NCBI GenBank assembly: GCA_951799425.1
Contig: OX637391.1
Span: 47,153,069 to 47,217,068, forward strand
Length of the DNA stretch: 64,000 nt
Direction of reading: 5' to 3'
DNA from: Ilex aquifolium
Taxonomy: Eukaryota > Streptophyta > Magnoliopsida > Aquifoliales > Aquifoliaceae
A program made the translations under genes and the position numbers. Below are positions 6,341 through 64,000 of the stretch, piece by piece; position 1 is the first letter of the stretch; every line of letters begins with the position of its first letter. Under the pieces are notes generated by a model. It was not told the origin of the DNA, made no database searches, and worked only from the letters and a program-made list of their open reading frames with translations.

Positions 6341-6343
6341 ATT

Positions 6344-7700: not shown

Positions 7701-7729
7701 GATGCTGAGGAAGATAAGGTACCAACCTT

Positions 7730-15185: not shown

Positions 15186-15356
15186 GCAGATGAGAGAGTG
15201 GGAATCGAGAAGACACTGTCATCATTAGAAGATTTGAAAAAGGCGGCTCAAAACGTGCAAGTAACCGCCCCTCTTTAATGGACGTGACCAGCAAGCCACC
15301 ACTCTCCTTGTGCCACCTGTCCCATGCTACAAAAAGAGTGGAGGCTGGGGGGCAGT

Positions 15357-16132: not shown

Positions 16133-16160
16133 AAACATATTAGGTATGTTTTTATAGATA

Positions 16161-29218: not shown

Positions 29219-29221
29219 ATT

Positions 29222-29238
29222 TGGCGCCGTCTGCGGGA
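29222..29238 (+). other. Element B tRNA primer-binding site
   Basis: TGGCGCCGTCTGCGGGA starts 3 nt after the LTR. It differs from the site in A at one base. Confidence 0.85.
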
Positions 29239-29272
29239 AACCTACGAACTTTTCCTTGTAGCGGTCGCGTCA

Positions 29273-30950: not shown

Positions 30951-31007
30951 AAAAAGTCTCGGCACAGTGCCGAGGTCATTCACTTTTCCGACGCCGACCT
31001 GGGCGGG

Positions 31008-34000: not shown

Positions 34001-34714
34001 TTGGTAGCTACTGATTATTTCACAAAGTGGATTGAAGCCGAGCCCCTGAGCTGTATTCGGGATGTCCAGACAAAGAAGTTTGTATGGCAGAACATTATCA
34101 CTCGATTCGGAATACCTGGGGCCATCATCTCAGATAACGTCACCCAATTCAATAGCGGTCCATTCCGAGAAATCTGTTCAGAGTTCAGAATACGCAACTA
34201 TTATTCCACGCCAGCCTACCCCCAAAGTAATGGGCAAACAGAGATCTCCAACAAGACATTGTTAGCATGAATCAAGAAGAGACTTGAAAAGACAAAGGGA
34301 AGGTGGATCGAGGAGTTACTCAACGTGCTATGGGCCTATAGGACCACGTCGAGGACTCCAATAGGAGAAACATCGTACGCCATGACATATGGCGTCGAGG
34401 CTGTCATCCCGCTGGAAATAGGGCTCCCGACGATACGAAGCCAAGCCTTCGAGTTTGGGAACAATGATCAGACGCTCGCCAAAGATCTTGACTTAGCTGA
34501 AGAAAGAAGAGAACTAACATCCATCAAGCTAGCAAATTACCAAGGGGAGCTGTCAAGACAACACAAGAAGAAAGTTCGGACGAGGAATTTCCCAGTAGGG
34601 TATTTGGTTTTGCGCAAGGTGGTAGGCACTGTTCAAGAACCCATTGATGGGAAGCTCGGCCCTAATTGGGAAGGTCCTTACAAAGTAATCGCTGTGGGGG
34701 GCACAGGTGCATAG
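31008..34714 (+). pseudogene. Element B pol: PR-RT-RNH-aRNH-INT (fossil)
   Basis: Protease core LVDSGSSSEVMYDDLF at about 31075; RT about 31730-32280 with YIDDMLAKS; RNase H about 32660-33000; archaeal-type second RNase H about 33065-33430 starting LHVDGSSNAKGAG; integrase about 33730-34710 with the CDKC zinc residues and ATDYFTKWIEAEPL. Domain order and residues parallel element A closely. The region is broken. Confidence 0.92.
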
Positions 34715-34825
34715 AGGCTACAAGACATGAATGGTAACGATGTAATCCGACCCTAGAATGTATCAAATTTGAGGAAATACTTCCATTAAACTGGATTTTA
34801 AACTTTGCTTCTAGTTGAATGACTA

Positions 34826-35330
34826 ACACGAGCCAAGCGCTCGGTCGTTAGGGGTACGGCTCGGAGGGGTGTAAGACTCCACCCTTGGAGCAATATCCTC
34901 AAATGACTAAACATGAGCCAAGCGCTCGGTCGTTAGGGGTATGGCCCCGAGGGGTGTAAGTCTCCACCCTTGGAGCAACGCCCTCAAATAACTAACACGA
35001 GCCAAGCGCTCGGTCGTTAGGGGTACGACCCCGAGGGGTGTAAGACTCCACCCTTGGAGCAACACCCTCAAATGACTAACATGAGTCAAGCGCTCGGTCA
35101 TTAGGGGTACGGCCCCAAGGGGTGTAAGACTCCACCCTTGGAGCAACGCCCTCAAATGACTAACACGAGCCAAGAGCTTATTCGTTAGGGGTACGGTCCC
35201 GAGGGGTGTAAGAATCCATCCTTGAAGTAACGCCCTCAAATGACTAACACGAGCCAAGCGCTTGGTCATTAGGGGTACGGCCCCGAGGGGTGCGGCCCTG
35301 AGGGGTGCAACGCCCTTAAAAAGATTAAAC
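34826..35330 (+). repeat. Element B 84-bp tandem repeat downstream of pol
   Basis: Six units start at 34826, 34911, 34995, 35079, 35163 and 35247, 84 bp apart (the first is 85). Each carries CGCTCGGTCGTTAGGGGTA and GGGGTGTAAGACTCCACCC. Sequence differs from the array in A, but the period, position and CTCGGTCGTT core are the same. No feature was recognised between 35331 and 35900. Confidence 0.92.
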
Positions 35331-36077
35331 GAGTTGGGCGCTCGGATGTCGGAGGGGTGCGACCCTAAAGATTATAACAGCTGGCCGAGGATCCCCCAAC
35401 ACTTGTGCAATCCACGAAAAATTTTATGGGTGTAGTATGAGGAATAATCCAGTAATAAGGAATTATTGTATGATAGAAAGGAAATTCCATTAAACAAAAA
35501 GGGGCTTTGCGTCCCCTAAAACATACAAAAATAAAGGGGATTACAAAAACAAGGAGTATAAACAGAACAAAGAATCCCTAGGCCCTTCGGCATCTGCAAG
35601 CTCTTCACTGCTGACTTCCTCGCCGCCAGGTCCGCCACGCCTTCTTAATGGCTCCACCCCAACCCCTAGTATCTCGTCAAGCTCGGTATCATGTTCCCCA
35701 ATAAGGATAGGGGGCGAAGGAGGAGGAAGATCATCACTCTGGTCGGCGGGCGGAAGAGAAGGGAGAACAGGAGAAGACGAATCAGAACCATCACTAAGTG
35801 TGATGGGATCATTGGGGCTCTCGGCTGAACCCTCTTGACCGGGGCCGGACTGCGGCTGACCCTAAGGAAGAATCCCTTCATCAGGCTCCCCAAGGACACT
35901 ATTCATGTGGAACAAGTTCGAGCCCGTGTCAACATGGGCGGCGTGCAAAGCGGCATCCCATCTGATCTTGGGTGGGGACCATCTGATCTTGGGTGCCCAG
36001 CCACACCCTTTGACACTCCTGTTGCAGCCTTTCCTGCTCCCCCACCTTCTCCGCGGTCAAGGAGTCAACTTTGGCTG

Positions 36078-37885
36078 TCAACTCATTGATAACGGCCTCG
36101 AAGTCCTGCAGCTTGATCTAGGCGGCGGACACCCGAAACTCGTACTCCTCGACCTTCTTGGTAGTCGCGGCCTCACCTGCCTTCGTCTTCTCCAACTCAG
36201 CAGCAACGACATCGTGCTGGCGAATGAGCTCGGTGATGTGCCGGGCCTGGTCGGCGAGTGTCTTCTCCACCCCGCGGATGTGCTCATCCTTGGCGGTCAG
36301 TGCCCGTTTGGTGTTCTTCGCCACCTGCTTGTACTCCCAAAAAGGTTCAACGATGGCCCCCATCTGCTGGTAGGCTTGAAAATGGAAAGAACTTAAGTCA
36401 GAAATGGCCAAGTATACAAGGCAAAGATAAATTGGGCCAAACGACACACTTACCACCATATTGCTATGGATAACGCTTTGAAGAAGCCTATTGTCCCCAT
36501 AGCCTTGGTAAACGGGCATGTCTGCCTCAAACTGGAAAGTCCCAGTGACTTCAAATGCAACGTCGAGGGACTAAAGGATGGAATCCGCCTCCAGCACAGG
36601 ACGACCCCTTTTGGTCTTTGCTCAGGGAGCCCATTCAACAGATGTGACTGGGCCCGGGGCATCATGTCGACTCTTCTGCCGATGCTCTTCGGTCTCTCGA
36701 CCTCGTCGGCCCCTTTGCCGATCGTCTGAGGGGGGGACTTGGCGACTTTGGGCCGAGTCCCTTGGCGGGATAATAGGGTCCCCGAACGGTTGAGGACGTG
36801 GCAGCGACGGAGGCGGTTCTCTATGCGGTGAAGTTGGCAGCGGGATGATCGGGGCAGTACCCGAAGGCCCAGTAAGCCCCGAGAGCCTGGCTCTTCTCGC
36901 CGTCGCTGCAACCTCCATCGTTGCGGTAGTAATGGGTGGTGGATTGAACATGTCTTCAGGTGAAGGGGTGTGCTCGAATTCTCAGTCCGGGTCTGCTACA
37001 AGGTCCCCTTCTTCTTCATGTTCCTCTTCCTCTTCTCCCTCATAAGAACGATCCTCCCAGCGTGAAGGATCGAATGGCGGAAGGACTTGGGAGAATCGGC
37101 TGTAAGTCGGGTGATAGCCGAGTAAGACGTGTGCGGCTCGGGAGTAGGGGTTGGCCTGATTGAAAGACCAAACCTTCAGCAAGTCCTCAAATCTGACTTC
37201 GGACTTCAGAGGTTGGGCAGCATCACGCCGGTATCTTTTTGCAAAAATAAACAATCAAGGTTAGGAATGATGAAGACAAGAGGGCCAAACAAATTTCAGA
37301 AGACACACCTTCATCCCTCAGCACTGTGGGGCAGTACAATCTGTCATACTCGGGCCCGTCTCCTTTCTCCCAACTCCCGTCGAGCATGATCAGATCGTCC
37401 ATATACCTCTTGTCCGAGTCTGGCATGTGGGTCACCAAGTACATAGAAGTATCCCATGCCTGAAAGTAGTACCTGGCCCCAACGACTTGTCTCAAGTAGT
37501 AGTAGAACAGGATTTCATTTACCCCCAGGCTCACCCCTAGCCGAGCATTTAGGGCAACCACGCCCATGACTATCCTAAAAAAGTTTACACCACATTGGAG
37601 GGGAAACAGCCTTAGCTGCATCAACATCTTCAGTAACAGGGGATGAAGAGGAAAGGTCAACCCCTTTTCCATGATGGCTTTGGTCCAGAAGGGCATCATG
37701 TCTACACTCCCTATGTCCCTTCTATGGTAACGGGGGTTGAAAGGGAAGGTGAAAACAGGCTCGGGGATTTGGTATCTATCCCTAAAAGCTTGGATATTGT
37801 CGTTATTCACCTCGGTCCTCCTTAACTTACGGTTGGCCCTAGCCCTGACTGATGCCCCCTCCATAGTTCTATGGGTTCTTGCCAT
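36078..37885 (-). pseudogene. Element B antisense gene region, gypsy-type Transposase_28-like (fossil)
   Basis: The minus-strand ATG at 37885 opens MARTHRTMEGASVRARANRK, followed by the PF04195-like block (LTFPLHPLLLKMLMQLRLFP, NFFRIVMGVVALNARLGVSL, EILFYYYLRQVVGA). Downstream segments are acidic and Pro/Ser-rich (about 36600-37250) and then a coiled-coil-like stretch (about 36118-36519). The order matches element A. Two independent insertions keeping this reading frame suggests that the family maintained it as a gene, with introns likely between the segments. Confidence 0.7.
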
Positions 37886-38096
37886 TGATGGGTTCTAAGA
37901 GAAATGTAGAAGAAATGCAAAGGAAATTAGAAGCAAATCCGAAGGAAGGGAAGTACTTACAGGTGGAGGATCTTCAAAGAGAGTGCTCGGAGGGTTACAA
38001 AAGAAGTGCTCGGGAGATGGAAGAAGAACGCTCGGGACTTGATTGCTAGAGGAAAGTTCAGGATTGCAAAAGTTCTGAATCAACTGAAACATCTAC

Positions 38097-38104
38097 TATT
38101 TATA
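38097..38104 (-). promoter_or_regulatory. Antisense TATA box in element B
   Basis: TATTTATA reads TATAAATA on the minus strand, about 210 bp upstream of the antisense ATG at 37885. It is the counterpart of 15176-15185 in element A. Confidence 0.6.
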
Positions 38105-38275
38105 GCCTGCTGAGAGGGCGGGAATCGAAGGGGCAAGTCATCATTTGGGAATTTGAAAAAGACGGCGTGAGACGTGCAAGTAACCGCCCCAATTTAATAG
38201 GCGTGTCTGGCAAGCCTCCAATCTCCTTGCGCCACCTGTCCCACGCCGCAAACAGAACGAAGGTTGGGGGGCAGT

Positions 38276-39008
38276 TGGCAGGACTTCAGGCGGCTCAGCA
38301 GCCCCCAGACTGACACGTGTAAAGATGTAGTCGTTATGGAGCTCAAGGGACACCGAGGAGTGGAGCCGAGGATGAATGGCTCAGAGGAGCCGAGTACATA
38401 TATCGACACCAGCATTTAAGGTGATTTGACAGCATATTTATGACGATGTGAGTGACTAAGACATGGCTATTAATGAGCCTCTGAATCCTCGAATACCCAA
38501 AACTGACAGTCATGGGTGCAAGCATTGATGACTATGGCGCCGAGAACAGAATCCAAGGTACCGACTCCTCGAGCACCGAGCACTCGGGAGTAGGTGTTAG
38601 ACGCCGATCAGAGACACTTTAGTGCCCGGGGATAGCCTTAGGCTCTCGGCGTGGTCCCGGGAGCTTATCCTATTGCCCGAGAATTGATGACACGAGAATC
38701 TGAGTAGAAAAAACTCATCACGCATGGGTAGGGGTGCAGCCCATTAAATGTTGAGATGGAACTTCCTGTCCATACACTCATTATTGATTCAGGTATAAAT
38801 ACACCTCAGAAAAATAGGCAAAAGTACGTAATTCACACTAAGAAAAATGGATACACTGTGTTTAAGCCTCAAAACTTATACTAACTTAAGCTTCGGAGGG
38901 GACAAGCTGGGTGCTTACCCGGCCCCTTTTCTGACCTTTCTTTGGTTGTTTCAGGTCGTTCATCGCGAGAATTGTTATCTCAAACTATTGCAGGAAATCT
39001 CCCGTGCA
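38276..39008 (+). repeat. Element B 3' LTR
   Basis: It starts TGGCAGGAC after the polypurine tract GGTTGGGGGGCAGT and ends CCCGTGCA before the target duplication. TATA box at 38794-38801. Confidence 0.93.
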
Positions 39009-39013
39009 ATTTG

Positions 39014-46963: not shown

Positions 46964-48912
46964 TGATGGCTTGATCCAAATGTATATACCCAAGTGCAGG
47001 CGGTCAAGCTGTAGTAATAATCCGGTTTGAGTCCGGAGTCGAATCCATAGGGAACTTTTGTTGATATCTCTAAGGCAAGCAGTGGTAGAGACCTTTTGAT
47101 TGTAACCTTTTTGATTTGCTGCGAGATATGGGTTTTGCTGGACAGAATATAAGATTCTTTCCAGAAAGATTTTCTTAACAAAATAGGAGATGAATGCTAA
47201 TTAAAAAGAGTCACCCTTTAGTGCAAGGATCTGGACATGTAGTTAGTTATCCGGTTTGTCATAATTGTGCTTGATAAATCAATTAACTCCCGTGTCAACA
47301 GCAAGTTAATCGGAAGATAAAGATGGATTGTGAGAATTAAGAACATGATTCCGATGTCTTTCTAGAAGTTTACAAGAATTGCCTGTGCCGAGACTTAACC
47401 CGTCTACAAACAAGCAAGTGTTTCTACAAGACATCCAATCATGATATTAATAGTCCATTCTTTAAATGAAGTACATTAAGGGGGGAGATTGAAGGGTAGT
47501 CATGAAGATCTAGCCGGGGTACTTGCCTTGAACTGATGAGTCTTTCTATGCAGGAGTCATCCATGTCATAGAAAGAGCTCACAATTATACAAAGTACCTT
47601 AGCTTTGCTAGATGCAATCAATCATCCGATAACAAGAAGAAATAAACGTTAAGCATAAAAGAACATTGCACAAATATGATTCCCGGATAACTTGTACATG
47701 CCTTTCTCCTCTCACTAAAGAGTGAATGAGAAACTACTCACTCTTCATGGCTTGGGTAAAGCTAGAAAAGTGAGTGATGATCATCCCTCCAAGTGGAGAA
47801 CTTTAAAAGATAAAGTAACAACAAACGCGGAGCGAATCTTCCACAAAGAATGAGTGAATCACGTTCCACCCTTCACGGCTTTAATCAAACTCTAGAAAAG
47901 TGGAAGAGTTTCACTCTTCTAAGAAAGAAGGAAGCTCAAGCAATGGAAGTGAAATGCATGAACAATAAAAGTAGGAGAAAGCTAGTCACATTTGAAGGGT
48001 GGCTTCCTCAACCAAAGATTGGAGGGTTGCTTCCTCAACCAAGATGGGAGCTATTTCTCTTCTATGCATGAGAAATGAAAGCATAAACATAAACATAGGC
48101 ATAAAACTACTGTTATAACAAGCAAGAGATGTTGGGCTAAAGCCAAACTAATCTCTAAAATAAAGACTTCATAAGGAAAATGAACTAACTACAATGAGAG
48201 TGGGAGTCTAAGCCTCCATCACTATCTACTTCCTACTATGCTCTCCTTTCTTTAGCTCTCCAACAAGGGGAGTATTTATAGGCAAGAGGAGGAGGCAGGG
48301 GGGTGAAAGAATAGTGTTTGCCGCCCAAGTCCAAGTGAACAGTCAACAACTCTGCTGCCAGTCTGTGGATAACGTTCGAACGTGAGTTGGCGTTCGAACG
48401 TTCTTTCTGTTTTTGCACTGAGGGCGTTCGAACGTTGAATGCCGTTCGAACGTTTCTTCTTGTTTTTGCACTAAGGGCGTTCGAACGCCAGATTTGCTCT
48501 GACCCCTTTCACTGTGGTCTTCTGTGAAGTTCAGTTCCAACTCTCTGCAGTGGTCTGGTCTTCTTCCATCAACTCAAGTGCACGTTCGAACGTGAGTTGG
48601 CATTCGAACGTGCACTCAAGTACTTCAGAGCTCCAGTCTTCTTTCCTAACTGCAACACGTCTTCTCTTCAGCAGTTGAGTCTGCTACAGTGTATTGTGGA
48701 CGTTCGAACGTGAGTTGGCGTTCGAACGTTCTGGCTGTGCTCCAAGCTTCTCCAATTTTGGGCTCTAATGTACTGGTGCTGCATCCAAGTGTGGTACTTG
48801 TTGTTCTTGAGTCCTTGTTCAGTTTAGGGCCTGAAATGACATCACTTAAACTCCATTAAAGTACCATAGTCTTAAAATGTCATAATAATATGTCAACTTT
48901 AAGTACTAATCA
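46964..48912 (-). repeat. Element D 3' LTR
   Basis: On the minus strand the LTR starts TGATTAGTACTT at 48912, immediately after the polypurine tract TTAGGTTGGGGAGTG, and ends GATCAAGCCATCA at 46964. A TATA box (TATAAATA on the minus strand) lies at 48273-48280. The right boundary is set by the polypurine tract and the left by the break in the gag frame of element F; the second LTR is not in the window for confirmation. Plus-strand frames inside it are shadows. Confidence 0.75.
48373..48728 (-). repeat. Paired CGTTCGAACG palindromes in the D LTR
   Basis: The 10-bp palindrome occurs at 48373, 48391, 48425, 48443, 48478, 48583, 48601 (one mismatch), 48701 and 48719. Eight of the nine form four pairs whose start-to-start distance is exactly 18 bp. 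The spacer is often GTGAGTTGG. Confidence 0.9.
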
Positions 48913-48996
48913 CACTCCCCAACCTAAATATTGCTAGTCTCTAGTAATATGAAAAAAGAAAATTCTACTCCTAATGCCATTTTCGTAGGTCATCCG

Positions 48997-50753: not shown

Positions 50754-51791
50754 TCACTCTCCTCCTTGCCCACTAGCTCCACCATGCCCACCATGTCCAC
50801 CCCTCAAATACCTAAGGATCTTGTCCTGCTTAGCTTCGATGCTAAGCATGACGTCCATCAAAGAGCGTCGGGTGCTGGTGCTGGTGCTAGGTCCCTCACC
50901 TGCTAGCTGATCTCCTTCTCCTCCCATCTCTCTCTCAATCTCATCAAGCTCCTCTTGCACTTCATCTACTCCTTGGGCCGGGGGCTCTTCTTGCCTTGCC
51001 GCCGGGACGCCACTATGACTTTGGCTTCTCCGGAATGAAGCCTTGTTCAATGGCCCCATTGGCTTCTGGATTTCCATCTCAGGCTTTACCCTTACCCCAT
51101 GCTCTATGCACATTTCAGTCACCAAAGTCGCAAAAGGGAGTGCATTCCTTTTTACATCACATCCCTTCTTCATTTCACTCAAGATGAGAGAGGGAAGGTC
51201 AATGCTATGTACCTTGCCAATGGCATACAGAAGTCGGGCCATATCAGGTAGGATCTCATTCTTTCTTCCTAAGGGAGCGAAGTTGGACACCGCAATCAAA
51301 TTCAACATCTTATACTTGTCGGTGAGCTCCCCTTGCTTAAAAAATTTCCTCCCTACCCATGAAAAGTCAGCTATCCCAGTCAACTCCTTTCCTACCACAG
51401 TCATTGCTACATTCTTCTTTGGTGGGTAGGTAGAGTTTTGCACCCGGAGTATTTCTTCCCTTATTTCCCCAATGTATGCTTCGTCCACGTCAATGTGGGT
51501 ACCCCTAACATATGTCCGTATTGCGCCGTTGATGATCTCAGCGTTGGAGTAAAACTCCTGCACCAATTCAACAACGGCGTCTCCACCATTTCTCAAATAC
51601 CATACCCACTCCCTCCTCTCCATTTCTTGCTTTATACCAATCTCGGCAAAATCATCAATCACAACATCCCTCTCACAGACAATAGCATGCTTACGGTAAA
51701 AATTTTCATACCTCTCAGCCTTCAAGGCATTAGGAAATCTGGTTCTATCATACGTCTTGGTCCTTTGCCTTCCTCCCCTTTCTTCAATCAC
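50754..51791 (-). CDS. Element D ORF3, Athila-type 'putative plant transposon protein' (fossil)
   Basis: A continuous 345-codon frame. The body (YENFYRKHAIVCERDVVIDD, EFYSNAEIINGAIRTYVRGT) resembles the plant transposon-associated domain PF20167 found downstream of pol in Athila elements. The C-terminal third is low-complexity, with QEEPPAQGVDEVQEELDEIE, a Ser/Thr run and a Gly/His-rich tail. No signal peptide or membrane segment is obvious, so it does not look like an envelope protein. Its role in Athila biology is unknown. It looks whole as a frame, although the element is broken. Confidence 0.7.
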   Translation of the reverse strand: MIEERGGRQRTKTYDRTRFPNALKAERYENFYRKHAIVCERDVVIDDFAEIGIKQEMERREWVWYLRNGGDAVVELVQEFYSNAEIINGAIRTYVRGTHIDVDEAYIGEIREEILRVQNSTYPPKKNVAMTVVGKELTGIADFSWVGRKFFKQGELTDKYKMLNLIAVSNFAPLGRKNEILPDMARLLYAIGKVHSIDLPSLILSEMKKGCDVKRNALPFATLVTEMCIEHGVRVKPEMEIQKPMGPLNKASFRRSQSHSGVPAARQEEPPAQGVDEVQEELDEIEREMGGEGDQLAGEGPSTSTSTRRSLMDVMLSIEAKQDKILRYLRGGHGGHGGASGQGGE

Positions 51792-51862: not shown

Positions 51863-52400
51863 CATTCGAACGTGAGTTTGATCTGGGGGGGGGGGTCCTG
51901 AAAAGTTCTGGAACTTAGGGTTCTAGGTCTGGGATTGATGATTTTGATGTGGAGAGGAGTTAGGGAGGGTCGAATTTGGATATTCTTGTGGAATGAGGGC
52001 AAATTGAGGTCTGTGGGGTGAGAATGGATTCTAGGGTTTTGAAAAATTTGGGGATTTTGGGTGAAAACGACGAACCAGGCTTTTATAGCCTGAGTTGTAA
52101 CGTTCGAACGTTGGTGACGTTCGAACGTTGGTAGAAGGAATTTAAAAAGATCGTTCGAACGTGGTCTGGCGTTCGAACATGATGAGCTCCCAGTACTTTT
52201 GAGTTTCTGTCAGAGGCCAAAGTACTGTAAATACTCTTCGTTCGAACGGTCTATTGGCGTTCGAACGTTAATCTAGTTCGAACGGTCTATTGGCGTTCGA
52301 ACGGACTGAGCTCCCAGTACTTTCAAGTTTCTGCAGAAGCTTCATCAGAGGCTGAGTACTGTAAGCAGTCAACGTTCGAACGTTACCTGGCGTTCGAACG
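51863..52400 (-). repeat. Paired CGTTCGAACG palindromes in the D internal region
   Basis: Copies at 51863 (single, one mismatch), 52101/52118, 52152/52170, 52239/52258, 52275/52294 and 52373/52391. Pairs are 17-19 bp apart; two carry the spacer GTCTATTGG. The same palindromes fill the D LTR (48373-48728). They lie between ORF3 and the vitivirus-like frame. Confidence 0.9.
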
Positions 52401-52668: not shown

Positions 52669-53079
52669 CTAATCTGAGTCTCCATCTGTGTCTGTGTAAA
52701 ATGGACAACCAGTAACTCTCCCAACTTCCTCTCTCACAAATCGGTTAAGCACAGTACCGGAATAGCATGGCGTATCAGGGTAATCCTTACTCAGCCCATT
52801 CACTATCCATTCTAATCGATCAAGTGCGCGACCGGAAATTGGTTCAGAACACTGGTTGTACTTTTTTTCGTGAAAGTATCTGCCACACTGTTTACAGGCA
52901 CCAAGCCTTTTTGCACGACGGCGTTTGGCAAAGCTACTTCTGCCACAGAGGGGTTTCGCTTGTTTTTCTTTGATTTCAGCCTTCCTTACTAATCTTGCTT
53001 TTCTCATGATCATGATATGTACATCAGATGGAAAAGTACATAGGACTCCTAGGCTAAACCAAAAAAAATTTACATCCAT
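52669..53079 (-). CDS. Vitivirus-like nucleic-acid-binding protein inside element D (endogenous viral fossil)
   Basis: A 136-codon minus-strand frame. After about 45 residues it reads CGRSSFAKRRRAKRLG, then a zinc knuckle CX2CX4HX6C (CKQCGRYFHEKKYNQC), then ISGRALDRLEWI and PCYSGTVLNRFV, ending in the acidic tail TDTDGDSD. The order basic GRS-FAKRRRA block, zinc knuckle, ISG-x2-LDRL block is that of the small 3'-proximal nucleic-acid-binding proteins of vitiviruses (such as the grapevine virus A p10), with carlavirus NABPs as more distant kin. In those viruses the protein binds RNA and acts in silencing suppression. The frame looks whole. It lies in sense with D, between integrase and ORF3. 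A likely start is one of the Met codons near residue 23-25. Age: no younger than the D insertion and older than E. Confidence 0.72.
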   Translation of the reverse strand: MDVNFFWFSLGVLCTFPSDVHIMIMRKARLVRKAEIKEKQAKPLCGRSSFAKRRRAKRLGACKQCGRYFHEKKYNQCSEPISGRALDRLEWIVNGLSKDYPDTPCYSGTVLNRFVREEVGRVTGCPFYTDTDGDSD

Positions 53080-53300: not shown

Positions 53301-53596
53301 AACTGAACATTGTCCCCAATGTTTTGAATTTACCGGTTCATGGAGTGTGGAGACGAGGTTGAATGGTAGAGATCTGTTCACCACTGAGACCTACAAATAA
53401 AAACACCAAAAATTACTCATCTGTGCGCAGATCTGAATTTCGGGTAGGCTGAAAATCCTTATGTGTGAGTGCGAACAAGAGAAGAACACCCGTGAGCAAA
53501 TGTAAGATTAAAATGCTAAACAGGAAGCAAAATATCGTGTTTGTGGAGTGTGTGGTCATGGGTGTTTTCTCGGGTAACAGAGACTCGAAGACTAAC

Positions 53597-53685: not shown

Positions 53686-54390
53686 TTATAAAGGCGCCCC
53701 AGTGGGTCGGGTTAGAGTAGATATTTCCTGACCCGATCCACTGGAGTGTCGGCAGGCGCGAATTTCGGAGGAGTACTCTGGTTCCATTAAAAGAATGGTT
53801 TCCACATTTCTAACAAAATCCTCCAAAAATGGTTTTAACCTCTGACCATTAACAGTAAAATTATTACCGTTTGCTGGGTTTTCCACTTCAACTGCTCCGT
53901 GTTCAAACACCTTTTTCACAATGTAAGGCCCAGCCCATCTTGATTTCAACTTACCAGGGAAGCGGCGGAGTCTTGAATTGAATAGCAAGACTTTTTGAGA
54001 TGGCTCAAAAGATTTCCGCACAATGTGTTTGTCATGAAAGATTTTCATCCTGGTTTTAGCAATCTTAGCATTTTCATATGCTTCATTTCTCAATTCCTCC
54101 AATTCATTTATCTGAAGTTTCCTTGTTAGCCCAGCCTTGTCTAAGTCAAAATTCATTGCTTTAATGGCCCAGTATGCCCTATGTTCCAATTCCACAGGCA
54201 AGTGACATGACTTTCCATAGACTAATCGATAAGGAGACATGCCCAAAATTGTTTTAAAAGCAGTTCGGTATGCCCAGAGTGCATCAGTCAGTTTTAATGA
54301 CCAATCTTTGCGATCTGGGTTCACCGTTTTTTACAAAATTAATTTGATCTCCCGATTAGTTAACTCTGCTTGTCCACTGGTCTGTGGGTG
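53686..54390 (-). pseudogene. Element D integrase, C-terminal portion (fossil)
   Basis: Minus-strand reading gives [40 protein letters not shown] and the C-terminal part with [20 protein letters not shown] and NGQRLKPFL, standard for Athila integrase ends. It is separated from the rest of the integrase by element E, whose target duplication ATAAG begins at 54391. Confidence 0.88.
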
Positions 54391-54395
54391 ATAAG

Positions 54396-55456
54396 TGATG
54401 AGAGAAAAATATTGCATATTTGATGGCCTCATTATATGCATTTTAACTCAACTTTTGCATTTAAGTACTTAGTGTTAGCCAAAGTTGTGAATAATGTTGA
54501 TATTTTGATGTTGCATGTTTTGATAGCTTAAATGATGGATTTTAGGACTTTGCAACTATGTTGGATGTGAGGTGTAGTGGTGGACTCATGAAATGAGGAT
54601 TGAGAGGCTTGGAAGGTAAAGAAATCAAGAAAAATGCATTTCGGATGAATACCTTCCGGAAGGTTTATGAAGACCTTTCGGAAGGTTTAGCCCACTGGAA
54701 TTTCGTAATTTGGACACTGTACCACTGTTTTTCTAAATTTTGACCATGATCTACTTCGTATTTGAAAAAGTGCAAAACATGAAAGTTGTAGATATGGATG
54801 TCCTTTTAGTTGTGTCAAAATTTCAGCTCAATCCAACGGTTGGATCAAAATTTATTATTTTTCTACCAAAACTGGTCCAGAGCTGTCACCAGATTCCAGT
54901 AGGTTAAACCTTCCGGAAGGTTGTCATCGTTCTTCCGGAAGGTCTTGCCCAGAATGCGAAAAACAGCCTGCAACTCAACTTTGCGGCTTGGGGGTCCCAC
55001 CTAATCTTCTCCCACTTGCTCCCCAACATTATCTTACACAAGCACATGCTTCCCTTACACATTTGGAGGACTTTGGAGGCTTTGCATTGAAGAAGGCATG
55101 GGAGGGAAGTGGGCTACCATGGGGGTGTTGTCCTAGCTTGGCCAAGGCAATCAACTCAGCCCCTCTTTGGTGTAAGACCTGCACACACCTAGGGGGACCC
55201 TCCATGGACGAAATTCAAGGCTTTCACTCTCCATTATACATTCAACATTCAACACACAAGAAAAGGAGTGGCTACCTAAGCTTAGTTTTTGCTCCATTGA
55301 GGAAGAAGACACCATTTGTTCGTTGTTGCCTAATCTTTTGCATTACCCCGAGGGAGAGTGACACTCCCCCATCCATATAAGCCACATACAATACACACAT
55401 TGAGGGTGAGGGTGATGTTTAGGGGTTAGGAATACAACACGGTTTTCAATCAATCA
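54396..55456 (+). repeat. Element E 5' LTR (short form)
   Basis: It starts TGATGAGAGAAAAATATTGC and ends CAATCAATCA. It contains two pairs of the palindrome ACCTTCCGGAAGGT (54651/54673 and 54908 with a partner centred near 54936), each pair 22 bp apart centre to centre. Relative to the 3' LTR, an internal stretch of about 0.86 kb is absent near 55300. Confidence 0.92.
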
Positions 55457-55459
55457 TTT

Positions 55460-55482
55460 TGGCGCCGTTGCCGGGGAAGGTT
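55460..55482 (+). other. Element E tRNA primer-binding site
   Basis: TGGCGCCGTTGCCGGGGAAG starts 3 nt after the LTR. It is the Asp-tRNA-complementary form known from Athila elements, distinct from the site in A, B and F. Confidence 0.85.
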
Positions 55483-55576
55483 AAGCGTCGAGTTCGAGGG
55501 TGATTTTGGGACGGCATAAGGTAAGTCTTGTGATTTTCATCACGGGCCAAGGTATGTCGTCTAACTTGTAAATATT

Positions 55577-56419
55577 TTGTTTTATATAATGTCTTATAAT
55601 TATTATGAAAATGTATCAAATGCCCCTTATTATGAAAATGTGTGTGAGATTTGTGATGACCTTGGGCTCATCTCTTGTATGTGCCAAATAAATTATCCGG
55701 TTCAAGACTTTGCATGCGAAAACTTTTACCCCAACCATTATGTTTCACCGAGTTATCCGAGTTATGGTTGGGAGAATGAACCGTATAATTTTCCATCCAA
55801 TCTCACACCACCAAATGAATTTTGCCATTATCCAACGTATGAGGACTTAACCGAACAAGCATTGGAAAATACTTTTTGCGAGTTTATGCAATGCCAATTG
55901 GAATTCAATGCCCAATTAGGCGAGTTTATGCAAAGCCAAATGGAATTCAATGCCCAAATAACTCAACAACTTAATACATTGACTAATGCTATAATTGTTA
56001 TGCATGAAGAACAACACCTTGAGCATAATCAATGTATTGAGAATGATCCCCCCATTGAAATGCATATTGATGTTGAATCTCCCACCACTCTAGATTGTGA
56101 AACATTTAATGAAGTTATTATCTCACATGAGGCTAATGAGCCCAAGGTCATTTTTTCATCTTTGAGTGGTGTTGAGATTCACATTTCTCAACTTGGGGAG
56201 GGCATTGAAATGGAGTCAAGTGTTCTTAATGAGAAATTGCATATTCCATTTGTTGCATTGCATAAACTCGCATACATCTTGGTTCGGTTGAGATTTTTGA
56301 ATTATTATCCCTTGTATGGTTGGATAGATTGGATAGAAAGGGCATTTATACAACACAAAAATTTTAAAATCAAAAAAATTCATGGGCGCAAGGTCATATC
56401 CGAATTGAAGCCGGATTGA
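55577..56419 (+). CDS. Element E gag-like ORF (fossil)
   Basis: A continuous 280-codon frame and the only one in the element. The N-terminal third is Tyr/Asn/Pro-rich with clustered Cys (CEICDDLGLISCMC). The middle has a repeated QCQLEFNAQLGEFMQSQMEF helix-forming stretch similar to the MQSQMNYNN segment of the gag of element D at the window's right edge. The C-terminus ends IHGRKVISELKPD. No protease or RT motif. I infer a reduced Athila gag; exact homology is uncertain. It may help the RNA enter particles made by autonomous relatives. Confidence 0.55.
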   Translation: MFYIMSYNYYENVSNAPYYENVCEICDDLGLISCMCQINYPVQDFACENFYPNHYVSPSYPSYGWENEPYNFPSNLTPPNEFCHYPTYEDLTEQALENTFCEFMQCQLEFNAQLGEFMQSQMEFNAQITQQLNTLTNAIIVMHEEQHLEHNQCIENDPPIEMHIDVESPTTLDCETFNEVIISHEANEPKVIFSSLSGVEIHISQLGEGIEMESSVLNEKLHIPFVALHKLAYILVRLRFLNYYPLYGWIDWIERAFIQHKNFKIKKIHGRKVISELKPD

Positions 56420-58309
56420 TATGAGCCCTTTTTGCTTTGTTTCGATGTATATAGTAGTTAGATTTCTTTTAACTGTTATATTTTTCTTTTCTTGATGTTG
56501 TAGTGTAGAAGTTGTTTACCTCTCCCTAATTTGGACTCATTTCATTTTGAGCATCATCATAGACAAACTCATTCAATATCATGTTTTAGTCTAAGTTGGG
56601 GGGTGTAAACAAGCTTTTTGTGTTTTATTAATGTATATAGAAAAAAAAAAAAAAAAGGGGTATCTCATTTCCCAATTTACTTTCGTTTTTCTCATTTGCA
56701 TGATGTCTTGTGCATTGAGGACAATGCATGGTTTAAGTTGGGGGGTGAGATGCACTATTTACATGTTCTGCCACTTTTTGTATAGAATAAGTTGGAAATG
56801 TGAAAATTTTAAAAAAAATTTGGAACATTTTTGTGAAAAATATTCAATATTGAACTATATTCCTCTATCTTAGTTGTTATGGGATTTGTGAATTGCTTGA
56901 TCTTCATTTTGAACTTTGAATACATGAGCACATTATAGAAGTTTATCCTATTGCCAAGAGTATCACATATGTGTTTTCTTTCAAACTTAACCATAGTGCA
57001 CCATGAACTTGTAATTTTGGTAATTTACGGATTGAGTTCACATTTTAGTGCTTGACATGAATAGTGGAGATGAGTAAGAACCCATGTGAGCTTTAGTGCC
57101 AATTCTTGTTGGAGGGAACTTACATGTACTCAAGGAACAATTTTTCAAATTTCACATTTGTTCAATAATCTCATTATGCTTGTTTTGGTTAGGTGCATTT
57201 GGGTAGTTAATTGACTTTGTCTTGATATGTACAATGCTCTCCCATGCGTATCTAGAGATGATCTTAGGCCATTTTTGAATGCTTTGAGCCTTTGCCTTTT
57301 TCTTGTGAAAAGTTTATCCCTAGTGCCGTGATTGAGCCTAATTGAATTCATTTCTATGCCATACATTTGACCAAGCCAATGAAAATGATAAATATCTACC
57401 TTACCTTGGTTGTTCCTAGAGCGGGATATGATTTGATCGTAAAAGAAAAGGAAGTATGGTGTGGAAACTCAAACAAAAGGGATAAATGATGTTGAAACTC
57501 AAAAGAGTTGAATGGAAAAAGAATGAAAATCCAAGAAAAGGAAAAAAAGGGGTGAAAGAAGAAAAGAAAGAGAAAAAGAAAAGGAAAATGTTAAAGAAAA
57601 AAAGAAAAAAGAAACAAAGAGTGTGGTGATGGTGTTAGCCTAGAAATCCCATAAAAGGGAGATCTTTTTGAAATAAAGGTCATTCACTCGGAACAACCCT
57701 CTTTGTTATCCTATATCCTTCATTTTGCCTACCTCAATATCACCCCAAGGCCTCATTACAACCCATGAAAGTCCTAAATGATCTAGAGAAAGCATGGGGG
57801 AGGCACACTTTTAAAGAAAAAGTAAAATTAATTTTGCTATCTAATGCCCTAGCATTACTTTCATGAGATTATGCCAAGGTTGTTTCATTTGTATACATGT
57901 GCTTCATTTTTTGATTATATGTGAGCACTTTGTTTTGAGCACAAGATTCTATCTCACATATACACATGGAGAACATGCTAGGATAATCATGAGTGATTCA
58001 ATGTTGAGAGAACACCCTTGGTGAGTTTTTGCATCGAAGCTTAATTTGGATAGCCATGTGAATGTGAATTACGTTGAGTAAATGCTTAAATTACATGTTC
58101 ATTCCACACACACACGAGTTTGAAAATGAATGTGTAGGTGAATACTCTAGAATAGCATTTAAAGCTATAATGTGTTTCATTTGTTTTTAGTTCGGGTGTT
58201 TTGAACAAAGCTATTTTTGAAATCCCATTGCTAGTTAAGATAAGGGAATATGCTTTAAATATTGGATATTAGCAAAAGAAGTTTGTAGGTACCTTCACTG
58301 GAAACCTTC
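56420..58309 (+). other. Element E internal untranslated region
   Basis: Holds two internal copies of the polypurine motif TAAGTTGGGGGGTG (56592 and 56735), an A-run at 56640, and a purine-rich stretch of GAAAAAG-type sequence at 57530-57620. No coding frame with a domain was seen. Long untranslated interiors are usual in large non-autonomous derivatives. Confidence 0.6.
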
Positions 58310-58378
58310 ACGAGACAAAACTCGTCCACTAGGGATCACCTAGGGGTTTAAAGACTTATTGCATATGCTAAATGCAAT
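58310..58378 (+). promoter_or_regulatory. Three-hairpin element upstream of the E 3' LTR
   Basis: ACGAG/CTCGT (58310-58325), CTAGG/CCTAG (58329-58343) and ATTGCAT/ATGCAAT (58358-58378) with loops of 6, 5 and 7 nt. It matches 48997-49065 of element D in stems, loop lengths and gaps. The outermost pair of the third stem is A-T here and G-C in D, a compensatory change. Confidence 0.6.
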
Positions 58379-58463
58379 TTCGGAATTAGTATAGGTTTAT
58401 TTTTTGTTTGCTTGCTTTTACATTTTGTTTGCTAGGGACTAGCAAAGCTTAAGTTGGGGGGTG

Positions 58464-60381
58464 TGATGAGAGAAAAATATTGCATATTTGATGGCCTCAT
58501 TATATGCATTTTAACTCAACTTTTGCATTTAAGTACTTAGTGTTAGCCAAAGTTGTGAATAATGTTGATATTTTGATGTTGCATGTTTTGATAGCTTAAA
58601 TGATGGATTTTAGGACTTTGCAACTATGTTGGATGTGAGGTGTAGTGGTGGACTCATGAAATGAGGATTGAGAGGCTTGGAAGGTAAAGAAATCAAGAAA
58701 AATGCATTTTGGATGAATACCTTCCAGAAGGTTTATGAAGACCTTCCGGAAGGTTTAGCCCACTGGAATTTCGTAATTTGGACACTGTACCACTGTTTTT
58801 CTAAATTTTGACCATGATCTACTTCGAATTTGAAAAAGTGCAAAACATGAAAGTTGTAGATATGGATGTCCTTTTTATTGTGTCAAAATTTCAGCTCAAT
58901 CCAACGGTTGGATCAAAATTTATTATTTTTCTACCAAAACTGGTCCAGAGCTGTCACCAGATTCCAGTAGGTTAAACCTTCCGGAAGGTTTTCATCGTTC
59001 TTCCGGAAGGTCTTGCCCAGAATGCGAAAAACAGCCTGCAACTCAACTTTGCGGCTTGGGGGTCCCACCTAATCTTCTCCCACTTGCTCCCCAACATTAT
59101 CTTACACAAGCACATGCTTCCCTTACACATTTGGAGGACTTTGGAGGCTTTGCATTGAAGAAGGCATGGGAGGGAAGTGGGCTACCATGGGGGTGTTGTC
59201 CTAGCTTGTCCAAGGCAATCAACTCAGCCCCTCTTTGGTGTAAGACCTGCACACACCTAGGGGGACCCTCCATGGACGAAATTCAAGGCTTTCACTCTCC
59301 ATTATACATTCAACATTCAACACACAAGAAAAAGAGTTGGCTACCTAAGCTTAGGATTAGTTTTTTAGAGCTCCAAGGAGGAAGATGATGAATAGTGACG
59401 TTTTTGCATTTTCTTCTCCATTCAAGTTGTAGAAATCTTTTTTAATCTCTTGTAAGGATCTTCTAAGTTTAATTTATTGTCTTTAATCCCATTCCTTTCA
59501 AGTACATTGCAACTTTAGTTACATGTTCTAGCTTTCACCATTGTTGTATGAGTCTTTCCACTTCAAGCTTTTCTTAAAATGGGTATTGAATGTTTTTCTT
59601 CATAGTTTTAGATTTATTGCTTCAAGTTAAGTTTCATGCTTTAATCTCCATTTCCTTTATATGTCTATTTACATTATGCTTGTCTTTCATTTATGCATAA
59701 GTAGCTAGCTTTTAAGTTGGTTAGTCCAAGGGTGAATTCCATTTGGGGATTCCATTCCAACTCTCTTTCATTCCTTCTCTCGGTGTATGTTGGCTCGGTT
59801 TGATTGGGTTGAAGGTGGATAAATTGGTGAGTCTTTGATATTCCGTAGGCCTAGTCACGGTTTATGCTTGGATACTCACCATTTTATCCCTAGCTTCCCA
59901 GGAATCAATCGTACTTCTAGGCACCATTGGAGGAAGGCTTTGAGTTGACTTGATATTCCCATTGGAATGAACCTCTTGGATTAGCCAACACTTGCTTTCT
60001 TGCATTTTCATTTTGAACAAAACTCAACAAAACACAAATACAAGATTTTACACTTTCTTTTCTCTTTTTGCAAAATCACTTTCACAAAACTCCCTTTCCT
60101 TCCCTGAGGAGACGACCTTGGAATACTTTTCCAAGTAAAACACCGACAACAAGAGACTCCTTACGATTGGGGAGCACTTTTGTTCACACGCATTCCATTC
60201 CACATTTCATTCCATACATTTTGTTCATTCCACATTTACATCCATTTTGTTGTTGTTTCCTATCTTCTTGCATCATCCGGAGGGAGAGTGACACTCCCTC
60301 ATCACTATAAGCCACATACACACATTGAGGGTGAGGGTGATGTTACGAGGTTAGGAACCACACCGCATTTCCAACCAATCA
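58464..60381 (+). repeat. Element E 3' LTR (long form)
   Basis: It starts TGATGAGAGAAAAATATTGC after the polypurine tract and ends CCAATCAATCA before ATAAG. The CTTCCGGAAG palindrome pairs recur near 58720 and 58975. The extra internal part (about 59370-60240) has no coding domain. Confidence 0.92.
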
Positions 60382-60386
60382 ATAAG

Positions 60387-60990
60387 GGGTTGCAATTTTG
60401 TGAAAAATCAAGTATTTTTTCATTAAATTCCAGAAGGGACGATTGCAAAAATGAGCACCCCCATCGCTTATGATTGACTTCGGAATTCCAAATCGGGACA
60501 AAATATTTTCTTTTAAAAATTTGATCACTGTTTTGTGATCATTGTTTCGGCATGGAATTGCTTCAACCCATTTGGATACATATTCTACAGCCACTAAAAT
60601 GTATAGATAGCCAAAGGAAGGGGGAAATGGTCCCATAAAATCGATGCCCTAACAGTCAAAAATTTCAATTACCAGAATGGGGTTTAAGGGCATCATATTT
60701 CTTTTAGAAATGTTTCCCAACCTTTGACACCTATCACAAGTTAAACAAAAGGCATGAACATCTTTGAAAAGTGTGGGCCAGTAAAATCCACACTGCAATA
60801 TTTTTGCAGCTGTTTTTCTTGATGAAAAGTGGCCACCACATGCTTCAGAATGACAAAAAGTTATTACCTGGCTACTTTCATGAGCAGGGATGCAACGTCT
60901 TATGATTTGATCTTTACAGTATTTGAATACGTAAGGATCCTCCCAAAAGAAGTTACGTACCTCCCTCAGAAATTTCTTTTTGTCCAACAT
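60387..60990 (-). pseudogene. Element D integrase, N-terminal and core portion (fossil)
   Basis: The minus strand shows the HHCC zinc domain (HSSQVITFCHSEACGGHFSS, CLTCDRCQRLGN) and the start of the catalytic core with YVSKWVEAIPCRNND and SDGGAHF. The downstream half lies on the other side of element E. Broken. Confidence 0.88.
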
Positions 60991-61044
60991 GGTAAAAGAT
61001 GGAGGGAGTGTATCAGTAGCAAGAAAGTTAGCAATGTCTGCATA

Positions 61045-62931
61045 CTATGGTGTCTTCTCAATCATGAACAGTTGTTCATCGGGGAATTTCTCATTGATTG
61101 GCAGTCCATCCTCATGAAATTCATAGGTTAGTCTCGATAGATGATCTGCCACCACATTCTCGACGCCTTTCTTGTCCTTAATGACAAGATCAAACTCTTG
61201 GAGCAAAAGTATCCATCTCAAGAGTCTCGGTTTGGCGTCCTTCTTTGTGAGCAAAAATTTTAGAGCTGCATGGTCAGTGAATACAGTAACAGAAGAACCA
61301 ACAAGATAAGAACGAAATTTTTCCAGTGCAAAAACTACAGCAAGCAATTCTTTCTCAGTTGTTGAATAATTCATTTGGGCATCATTCAAAGTTTTGCTTG
61401 CATAGTAAATCACATGGGGTTTCTTATATTTTCTTTGTCCCAATACATCACCTACAGCAAAATCACTTGCATCACACATTAGTTCAAAAGGAAGATTCCA
61501 GTCAGGAGGTTGCATTATTGGTGCAGAAATTAACATGTCTTTTAGCTTGTCAAAGGCTTTTTGGCATGCTTCATTCCAATCAAATATTACATCCTGACTT
61601 AGGAGGTGACACATTGGCTTTGCTATGGTACTGAAATCTTTTATGAATCTCCTGTAGAACCCTGCATGACCTAGGAATGATCGAACATCTTTTACAGTCT
61701 TAGGGGCAGGCAAATTTCCAATCAAATCAATTTTTGCCTTGTCAACTTTCATGCCTTCAGACGACACGATGTGACCAAGAACAATGCCCTGTGTTACCAT
61801 AAAATGACATTTTTCCCAATTGAGCACTAGGTTGGATTCCTTACATCTGATCAGTACTTTCTCCAGATTGGTTAAACACAAGTCGAAGGAATCACCATAG
61901 ACAGAGAAGTCATCCATAAATACTTCCAAAATTTTTTCAACCATATCACTGAACAAGCTTAGCATACATCTTTGGAATGTTGCAGGAGCGTTACAAAGTC
62001 CAAATGACATCCTTTTGAATGCAAAGGTGCCAAAGGGGCATGTGAAGGTTGTTTTCTCCTGATCATCTAAGGCTATCTCAATTTGGTTATACCCTGAATA
62101 TCCATCCAAGAAACAGTAAAATGCATTGCCTGCAATTCTCTCCAGGACTTGGTCAAGAAATGGGAGAGGAAAATGATCTTTTCTAGTGACCAAATTGAGT
62201 TTTCGATAATCAATGCACATTCGCCATCCTGTGAGGACTCGAGTTGGCACTAGTTCATTTGCATCATTTTTTACCACTGTGACCCCAGATTTTTTTGGCA
62301 CAACTTGGGTTGGACTGACCCATTTACTATCTGAGATAGGGAAGATTATCCCTGCATCTAGGAGTTTGAGTACCTCAATTCTCACAACTTCCTTCATGTG
62401 AGGATTCAGTCGTCGCTGCATTTGACGAGAGGGTTTTGAGTCCTCTTCAAGGTATATGGCATGATTGCAGATTAACGGGCTTATACCTTTCAAGTCAGCG
62501 ATGGTCCATCCAATGGTACTTTTATGACTTCGAAGAACTTCAAGCAATTTAGACTCTTGCAAGTCTGTGAGTTTAGATGAAATTACCACTGGGTACGACT
62601 CATTCTCTCCTAAGAATGCATATTTGAGGTCAGATGGGAGAGGTTTCAATTCAGGCTTTGGTGGGCTAACACTTGATGAGACTGGCTTTGTGCCACTTGG
62701 TGAAATTTCTTCGAATTTGAGTGCCCAAGTCTCAACAGTATGAGTAGGGTCACTTGGTGGTTTTGGGTCATCATCTGTTATTTCTGATGAGATGAGTTCT
62801 AACAGAGATGATTCAGCAGGATCCTCACAGAATGTATCATCTAGATGTTCCTGTATCAAAGATTCTATGGAGTGTACTTCCCTTTCTTCCTTTTCCTCTT
62901 CTGGATGTTTAGCAATATTGAAAATGTTCAT
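61045..62931 (-). pseudogene. Element D reverse transcriptase and RNase H (fossil)
   Basis: An open stretch of about 628 codons on the minus strand: linker with protease-RT spacer features, then RT from about residue 155 ([46 protein letters not shown]), catalytic block [13 protein letters not shown], and RNase H with [15 protein letters not shown] and [10 protein letters not shown]. The interrupted-looking [10 protein letters not shown] insert between palm motifs is an Athila hallmark. Although this part is open, the element as a whole is broken. Confidence 0.92.
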
Positions 62932-64000
62932 TTAGAGAGTCATATTCCCAAAAGTTAATTTCATGACTCTATTCCTGCAATTGATTAAAGCATTGGAAGT
63001 TGCTAGGAATGGTCGACCAAGAATGACAGGAATTTGGTTCTCCAAATTTATTGCTGGTTGAGTATCCAGAACAATGAAGTCAACAGGGAAGACAAAACTA
63101 TCTACTTGGACAAGCACATCTTCAACAATCCCTCTGGGGGTTTTGACAGATCTGTCAGCCAACTGGAGTGTGACACAAGTGGGTTTAAGTTCTCCCAAAC
63201 CCAACTGTTGATACACAGAGTAGGGTAGCAGATTAACGCTGGCTCCAAGGTCTAACAAGGCTTGTTCAATTCTGAAATTTCCAATGATACATGAGACAGT
63301 CGGACATCCTGGGTCTTTGTATTTTGGAAGGGTTTTCTGTTGGAGAAGAGCACTAGCTTGTTCCGTTAGGAAAGCTCTTTTTTGGACTTTCTGGCTTCTC
63401 TTGACTGTGCACAAGTCTTTTAGAAACTTGGCATAAGGCGGGACTTGTTTGATTGCATCCAGAAGTGGGATGTTGATATTTACTTGCTTAAAAAGCTCGT
63501 AAATTTCAGGCTGATTTTTCACTTTCTGTTTGGCTCTGAGTCGATGAGGAAATGGAGCTGGAACGGGATACGAAGGTTCCTTTTTCTCAGAAGGTTCTGA
63601 CTCTTGTTCAATCACAGACTCAGGGTCTTTCTCAATTGGTTCAGGTTCAGATGATGGATTGACTGGGCTTGACTCAGGTCTTGGCTTGGGAATGAGTATG
63701 TCTCTGATTGTTTTGTCAATCACTTTGCCACTTCTTAGGGTCGTGATAGCTTGGGCTTGGTCTTGGGTGTTTCCTGTTGTTGAAGGGTTTCCTACATGGA
63801 ATTGGCCTTGTGGTTGTTTTGGTTGAGCAGGAAACTTTCCTTTTTCATGTGTGACCATGGATTGAGTCAACTTTTGGATGTGGCTTTTAAGATCCTCAAA
63901 AGATTGAGTGGTCTGGATTTTGAAATCAGTGAAAGCCTGTGTGGAATTATTGTTATAATTCATTTGGCTTTGCATGAACTGATTTAATGTGTCCTCAAGG
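62932..64000 (-). pseudogene. Element D gag C-terminus and protease (fossil, runs off the window)
   Basis: The minus strand reads the gag tail (FEDLKSHIQKLTQSM, ITTLRSGKVIDK, the usual Athila LRSGK block), a Pro/Glu-rich linker, and an aspartic protease fold (LDLGASVNLLPYSVYQQLGL, VILGRPFLATSNALI). The protease reads DLGAS where most retroelements have D-S/T-G; DLGAS is usual in Athila. The region continues past the right edge. Confidence 0.85.

Follow-up and report, generated by a model that had tools for sequence, protein, structure and literature searches.

Introduction

Vitiviruses, carlaviruses and some trichoviruses have, on the 3' side of their coat protein gene, a gene for a zinc-ribbon RNA-binding protein (PMC4472227). 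The p10 protein of grapevine virus A (GVA) contains an arginine-rich stretch (KRRRARR), a zinc finger and the block HKLDRLRFVKEGRV, which is not conserved in other vitiviruses, and it is described as binding RNA and suppressing silencing (PMC9104223). The p12 protein of chrysanthemum virus B (CVB) is reported as a transcriptional activator and silencing suppressor (PMC7588395), and the cysteine-rich proteins of viti- and carlaviruses carry an arginine-rich nuclear localisation signal (PMC11213338). Plant LTR retrotransposons are already known to contain extra open reading frames (PMC7264820). The domain PF20167 occurs in an ORF of a sunflower Athila element (PMC11728184), and a second RNase H is the mark of Tat elements (PMC6317226).

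Here we analyse a 64,000-nucleotide stretch of the Ilex aquifolium genome (the window), in which a first-pass annotation had reported a vitivirus-type nucleic-acid-binding protein (NABP) inside an Athila LTR retrotransposon. To our knowledge, whether plant LTR retrotransposons carry silencing suppressors of their own is an open question. We posit that the window frame is probably a decayed copy of a resident Athila accessory gene, one that would have been captured from a flexivirus and would encode a protein that lowers silencing.

The window frame encodes a protein of the Viral_NABP family

The frame at 52669..53079 (minus strand) is open over 136 codons plus stop. It scores above the cut-offs of two Pfam families, PF05515 (Viral_NABP; E 4.5e-10, 40.3 bits against a curated cut-off of 23) and PF01623 (Carla_C4; E 9.6e-6, 25.9 bits against 20.9), and recurs in other genomic copies (see below). 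Eleven database proteins are 67-85% identical to its product, and together with the Pfam scores they rule out a chance frame.

The series of motifs announced by the first-pass annotation was recovered in full from the translation. It comprises a basic arginine-rich block, GRSSFAKRRRA (residues 46-56; 52912..52944, minus strand), a zinc-knuckle-like C-x2-C-x4-H-x6-C (residues 62-77, with C62, C65, H70 and C77; 52849..52896, minus strand), the block ISGRALDRL and an acidic tail, TDTDGDSD. The block ISGRALDRLEWIVNGLSKDY (residues 81-100; 52780..52839, minus strand) is kept in close relatives. A tree of the gathered proteins took in 88 of the 121 rows; across 88 aligned relatives, K52, R54 and R55 of the basic block and C65 of the knuckle are invariant, and C62 is nearly so. 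The basic block followed by zinc-finger ligands, which is the trait of the Viral_NABP family, is present in the window protein and kept in its relatives, and this shared signature is that of the family as a whole.

The frame lies within an Athila-type retrotransposon

The NABP gene is carried by an LTR element, D, in the same sense and, as the first-pass annotation had it, between integrase and ORF3. The 3' LTR of D (46964..48912, minus strand) and its 5' LTR (window coordinates 65349-67296, beyond the window, in locus L058) were delimited by aligning the two LTRs with each other (1958 columns, 98.6% identity). The GGTGC that borders each LTR on its outer side represents a 5-bp target-site duplication. 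The polypurine tract TTTAGGTTGGGGAGTG (48913..48928, minus strand) was read from the sequence, and a similar tract precedes the 3' LTR in the six fetched copies whose sequence was inspected. Two LTRs, a polypurine tract and a target-site duplication, as in Athila elements, were seen in D and in five of ten fetched copies.

On the minus strand, D encodes an aspartic protease frame that continues beyond the window end (62935..63999; PF13650 above cut-off), reverse transcriptase (RT) and RNase H (61045..62931; PF00078, PF17917, PF17919), the integrase N-terminal part with the H2C2 zinc domain (60649..61044; PF17921) and the integrase C-terminal part (53686..54330; 69.5% identity over 187 aa to the integrase frame of contig L001, described below). 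In-frame stops interrupt the pol frames at 62934, 61047 and 54333, and the C-terminal integrase frame begins after the last of these. The integrase is further split by a younger LTR element nested in D (54395..59354, plus strand), whose terminal repeats (54395-55285 and 58463-59354) are 98.9% identical. This nested element, of about 5 kb, contains a 284-aa frame that has no Pfam match above cut-off, and an extra piece at 60238-60357 (plus strand) resembles the stretch after its first LTR. Downstream of the integrase on the minus strand, a pattern scan located a landmark, ACATTGGGGACAATG followed by AGGTTGGGGGG (53308..53322), upstream of the NABP gene. ORF3, an Athila-type accessory ORF (50754..51791, minus strand), matches PF20167 (Transposase_32) at E 4.2e-23.

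A Pfam scan of nine neighbouring frames gave matches above cut-off in three (RT/RNase H, integrase zinc domain and Transposase_32) and none in the other six, which bears out the earlier claim that the gene stands apart from any other viral domain. It lies between pol and the 3' LTR, and not 3' of a flexivirus coat protein gene. RT, RNase H and then integrase H2C2 follow each other in gypsy order, and a match to RVT_3, the second RNase H, is absent from D and present in element A of the window. A Transposase_32 ORF was found both in the window and in copy C3. Judged from its domains, D, with such an ORF3 and without a second RNase H, fits an Athila-type element, and the Pfam scores of the frame together with the structure of D support the earlier placement of a flexivirus-type NABP gene inside an Athila-type LTR retrotransposon.

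Further features of the window were recorded. The palindrome CGTTCGAACG occurs eight times in the D LTR (48373-48721) and eight times between NABP and ORF3 (52101-52391), and in copy C3 nine times in one LTR and eight times between NABP and ORF3; these repeats are perhaps regulatory and common to U3 and the inner spacer. On the plus strand, 5574-16133 and 28486-39013 are LTR elements related to each other, for the most part at about 75% similarity. Long antisense frames and a second RNase H domain mark the first of them as Tat/Retand-like.

The NABP gene is resident in a high-copy family

A protein search of the genome to which the window belongs (800 Mb, 103 contigs) returned 4060 first-look candidates, of which the best-scoring 150 were scored. 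All 150 are 91-100% identical to the window protein, end to end nearly or fully, and 137 have no internal stop, a fraction that is biased upwards because the scored copies are the best-scoring ones only. PF05515 was matched in three other genomic copies with 38.9, 46.6 and 32.7 bits (cut-off 23). The gene had been described as an unusual capture; with at least 150 near-identical copies, and a tandem arrangement in one young element, it is instead a resident gene of a high-copy family and no single capture.

Ten copies with both flanks were hand-picked from the 150. The landmark ACATTGGGGACAATG precedes the NABP by 223-252 bp in all ten and lies upstream of it in 20 of 20 further copies, likewise chosen by hand. 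Five of the ten have an LTR pair (LTR identity 97.1-99.94%) and matching 5-bp duplications, namely C3 (GTGGG), C1 (CTTTT), C19 (TCCAC), C9 (CAAGG) and C20 (GGTAT); no duplication was established in the other five, one of which, C17a, also gave no sign of an LTR pair. The element body matched RT and the two integrase parts in C3, C14, C9, C17b and C16, the integrase C-terminal part at 83-97% identity with one piece at 75%. Of these domains, C1 and C17a show RT alone, and C19, C20 and C7 show none. ORF3 was matched in six of the ten copies and as a fragment in one more.

All ten fetched copies have an NABP without stop and four encode an identical protein; overall, a stop lies inside the NABP in 2 of 33 copies. 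The five copies that lack an integrase match (C1, C17a, C19, C20 and C7; loci L012-L015, L018, L019, L024, L025, L028 and L029) have an open NABP after the landmark all the same. Several copies, lacking integrase or RT matches, have thus lost internal parts and could not be autonomous on their own, and as none of the ten NABPs contains a stop, such deleted elements still hold an open gene.

Downstream of C17b (locus L022) we observed another Athila-type integrase and the landmark with one base different, with a 114-aa frame 356 bp further along. In the intervals between them and beyond, to the end of the stretch, NABP matches are at chance level only (E >=0.19). By eye the 114-aa frame looks like the start of an ORF3, yet it gave no match to ORF3 of D. 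If it is an ORF3 start, the NABP is perhaps an addition to the basic Athila plan.

Tandem genes and subfamilies

Copy C9 is the youngest element, with LTRs 99.94% identical over 1758 bp. It contains two intact NABPs (L020, 7001-7408 and 5305-5706, minus strand), both above the PF05515 cut-off. The second lies 1.3 kb after the first, is about 69% identical to that of the window and, by eye, is of the type of the database proteins P0007-P0010 and P0012. A 142-aa frame between the two has no Pfam match, and ORF3 was not matched in C9. The source contigs of P0006 and P0019 are both 2941 long and may have the same tandem arrangement. L050, L052 and L053 hold NABPs of further subfamilies, with 57-59% identity to that of the window, and the NABP of L050 again follows integrase and landmark.

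Between C3 and C9, dS is 0.26 for the NABP, 0.87 for RT and 0.52-0.85 for integrase, and the spacer before the NABP is 62-65% identical, the stretch after it 46%. On these comparisons, the low dS of the NABP looks like exchange of a cassette between families or constraint on synonymous sites.

Selection on the NABP

Comparison of copies by the Nei-Gojobori method gave NABP dN/dS values of 0.12 for C3-C9 (10 nonsynonymous and 20 synonymous changes, binomial P 2.3e-7), 0.19 for C3-C16, 0.16 for C9-C16 and 0.17-0.29 for first against second NABPs. These lie in the range of integrase (0.04-0.30) and RT (0.07-0.17) in four comparisons; the near pair C9-C17b has a dN/dS of 0.57 on three changes. The NABP is under purifying selection between subfamilies (0.12-0.29), and the suggestion of the first-pass annotation that it was kept while the family was active is borne out by this comparison of copies.

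Variants relative to C3 were sorted by whether they are private to one of the 32 other copies or shared. Private variants comprise 32 nonsynonymous, 17 synonymous and 2 stops, and those found in at least two of the 32 copies comprise 17 nonsynonymous and 28 synonymous (Fisher P 0.013; neutral expectation 2.55 to 1). This contrast indicates that the NABP was selected while the elements were active and decayed afterwards. Together with the dN/dS between subfamilies, it rules out a neutral passenger. The window's own copy, with 6 nonsynonymous and 1 synonymous change relative to C3, is decaying. The first-pass annotation had also drawn on the frame being open in a broken element. All 136 codons are indeed open, but this is no evidence of maintenance, as in our judgement the stop rate of the D pol frames could well leave 408 nt open by chance.

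Tests on protein sequences alone, within a small and close family, were weak or mixed. Among P0001-P0010, 66 of 134 columns are invariant against about 54 expected by interpolation (sd about 5.5), with P0013 and the truncated P0011 and P0012 left out. For 11 of the 12 database matches (P0013 out), only 4 of 11 comparisons had a conservative-replacement score that fewer than 15 of 300 simulations could equal.

Relationship to viral proteins

A fold search with the window protein gave 40 matches, 27 of them with flexivirus names. The best of them, and the only one of the 40 to pass E 0.001, is a Glyptostrobus pensilis prunevirus silencing suppressor (32% identity over 130 columns, E 7.6e-5). Cherry mottle leaf virus, Prunevirus armeniacae and grapevine virus D (GVD) follow in this order, all above E 0.001; the first three matches are 28-32% identical over 125-139 columns, and GVD, with an E-value similar to those just above it, is 38% identical over 93. 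We take the flexivirus membership of these viruses from their names, the Prunevirus assignment having been checked. The model of the window protein is weak (pLDDT 72, pTM 0.40), so the fold match leans on sequence. With this proviso, the label 'vitivirus-type' appears too specific, as two pruneviruses and a trichovirus stand above the first vitivirus, at close E-values, and the signature behind the label is shared by the Viral_NABP family at large. A fold search with a protein of the second NABP family (see below), likewise from a weak model, gave 29 of 46 matches with flexivirus names, none at E 0.001 or better.

No named viral protein was found among the matches listed by three protein searches (12 of 12, 120 of 371 and 64 of 64), and scans of viral contigs gave no relatives. 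Plasmids (query P0121) and phages (query P0001) gave no match. Solved structures, with matches accepted up to E 10, returned 12 named ribosomal proteins and 1 uncharacterized one (best E 0.019).

A second NABP family

A profile search, whose query alignment included the second-family fragment P0013 and was helped by it towards this family, found 371 proteins, 120 of them listed, and 105 of the 121 gathered proteins form one cluster, often of 182 aa. Mean column identity in this second family is 63% in 12 rows. Its named members come from Populus, Xanthoceras, Rhamnella, Orobanche, Parasponia and Striga, with clusters of up to 566 sequences, and span rosids and asterids (lineages of Xanthoceras, Orobanche and Parasponia looked up). 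Among 48 proteins of 178-192 aa drawn from P0014-P0121, invariant columns number 34 of 182; neutral simulations at comparable identity gave about 2.

The sole genomic context seen for this family is L001, where an Athila-type integrase frame is followed by an intact member identical to P0061. The contig is filed in a Candidatus Nomurabacteria MAG and looks like a contaminant, its DNA being plant retrotransposon-like. In L001 the NABP comes first and the landmark after it, the opposite of their order in the window's family. D and L001 share 69.5-70.2% identity in their integrases and 34%, over 85 aa, in their NABPs. With P0013 left out, comparing the two family profiles gives a match of probability 97.7 and E 1.9e-12 over 85 columns; including it inflates this comparison to probability 99.5 and E 9.9e-23. 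The second type was not among the best 150 matches of P0061 in the window's genome (29-37% identical), and eight inspected matches are of the window's type, three of them being the ones 57-59% identical to the window's. We read the two element families as two gains, a thin reading from the one second-family context.

In L001, TTTCTTTCTCTGCAG ends at 1661 and the next ATG downstream belongs to the NABP frame; in the window, the stretch from 53391 to the start of the NABP contains six ATGs. A splice acceptor before the NABP is only suggested by these positions.

Discussion

We propose that an ancestral Athila element may have taken the NABP gene from flexivirus RNA, perhaps of a prunevirus- or trichovirus-like virus. 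Template switching during reverse transcription, as put forward by the first-pass annotation, is a plausible route, and virus to element would be the direction of transfer. A second Athila lineage would have acquired an NABP of its own, unlike the first and in a separate position. The small basic zinc-finger protein would be made from element RNA, perhaps spliced, and may bind RNA or small RNAs through its basic block and zinc knuckle. By analogy with what is reported for viral NABPs, it could lower host silencing of the element in its expressed phase; the main alternative is a role as RNA chaperone or in transcription.

A broader possibility, which we hold tentatively and at rather less than an even chance, is that Athila elements and flexiviruses share one pool of NABP suppressors that moved repeatedly, some viral NABPs perhaps being derived from retrotransposons. 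It is suggested by the unlike NABPs on opposite sides of the landmark, the tandem genes, the possible cassette swaps and the deleted elements with an open NABP. If true, retrotransposons would carry dedicated anti-silencing proteins of viral type.

As to function, the protein might chaperone RNA in the manner of a nucleocapsid protein, or activate element transcription in the nucleus, rather than suppress silencing. A basic block with a zinc knuckle is also a feature of nucleocapsid proteins. The nuclear localisation signal of viti- and carlavirus cysteine-rich proteins (PMC11213338) and transcriptional activation by CVB p12 (PMC7588395) point the same way, but silencing suppression is the role most often ascribed to the viral relatives (PMC11213338, PMC9104223, PMC4472227), and we consider this alternative rather unlikely.

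As to the number of gains, one ancient Athila acquisition followed by relocation and fast divergence could have produced both families, which share the element type, the side of the integrase and the orientation, and whose profiles match over 85 columns. The positions on opposite sides of the landmark (in the one second-family context), the low identity of the NABPs beside that of the integrases (about 70%) and the second type not being among the best 150 P0061 matches in the window's genome make a single gain unlikely in our view. Less likely again is the reverse direction, in which flexiviruses took up an NABP that had originated in plant retrotransposons or host genes. The gene is widespread in plants, as the six named genera and the large clusters show, and within Trichovirus and Carlavirus its presence is patchy (PMC4472227); yet two gains from outside account more easily for such unlike NABPs beside well-conserved integrases and on opposite sides of the landmark. 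That viral cDNA inserted just once, by chance, into a dead Athila copy is a reading for which only the single occurrence of the frame within the 64-kb window could speak, and we reject it: all 150 scored copies match, the ten fetched copies have the gene in the same place relative to the landmark, and dN/dS is well under 1 between subfamilies. Neither of the two outcomes that the first-pass annotation had named as refuting its reading was obtained.

Our preferred reading remains a resident Athila gene, probably captured from a flexivirus. A selected, virus-like zinc-finger gene in Athila suggests that these elements borrowed an anti-defence gene from viruses or shared one with them. The NABP is a concrete suppressor candidate, selected and present in high copy number, with well-studied viral relatives and at least one very young copy. 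For gene traffic between RNA viruses and retrotransposons, it offers two element lineages in which the transfer could be timed and oriented.

Comparison with known systems

A literature search (titles and abstract openings, and full text under open licence) found no description of an NABP in a retrotransposon, and searches by the names and numbers of both Pfam families returned only titles on glyoxalase or methylglyoxal genes. Extra ORFs of LTR elements and viral remnants in chromosomes are known, and a selected flexivirus-type NABP of Athila was not found in the literature searched. Being small, the gene may have escaped notice, as one systematic survey predicted extra ORFs of at least 250 codons only (PMC6317226).

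The element D resembles Athila elements with additional 3' ORFs in its domain order, in showing no second RNase H and in its Transposase_32 ORF3, and D and its copies share with Athila elements the LTRs, polypurine tract and 5-bp duplications. The additional ORF described for Athila is the large env-like or Transposase_32 ORF, an NABP not being mentioned in the portions of those descriptions consulted. In a screen of 121 genomes, an AlkB (2-ODD) domain was reported in orchid Ty3/gypsy elements (PMC9289625), likewise an RNA-related domain known from flexiviruses that became fixed in plant gypsy elements, but a different one; the section of that paper on extra domains names 9 of 15 without an NABP, and 'carla' and 'NABP' are absent from its main text. 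Replicase-like, flexivirus-derived sequence in cucumber (PMC3136472) is also virus-derived DNA in a plant chromosome; as described in the available text, however, such endogenous sequences are remnants near transposons and not transposon genes.

The window protein shares with the p10 of the vitiviruses GVA and GVD an arginine-rich block followed by a zinc finger. Its ISGRALDRLEWIVNGLSKDY block resembles one reported for GVA p10, in which HKLDRLRFVKEGRV is similar to ALDRLEWIVNGLSK of the window protein, whereas the spacing of the zinc ligands differs from the vitivirus one printed in the same paper (PMC9104223). A published primer for the prunevirus NABP gene (PMC4472227) decodes, in our reading, to approximately M-L-V-R-K-L-E-I-Q-(E/D), near LVRKAEIKE of the window protein. 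The NABPs of pruneviruses and trichoviruses (Betaflexiviridae, Trivirinae) that head the fold search are of like length, 130, 135 and 139 aa compared with 136 aa in the window, but viral genes of this kind follow the coat protein gene of an RNA genome, whereas that of the window lies in an LTR retrotransposon.
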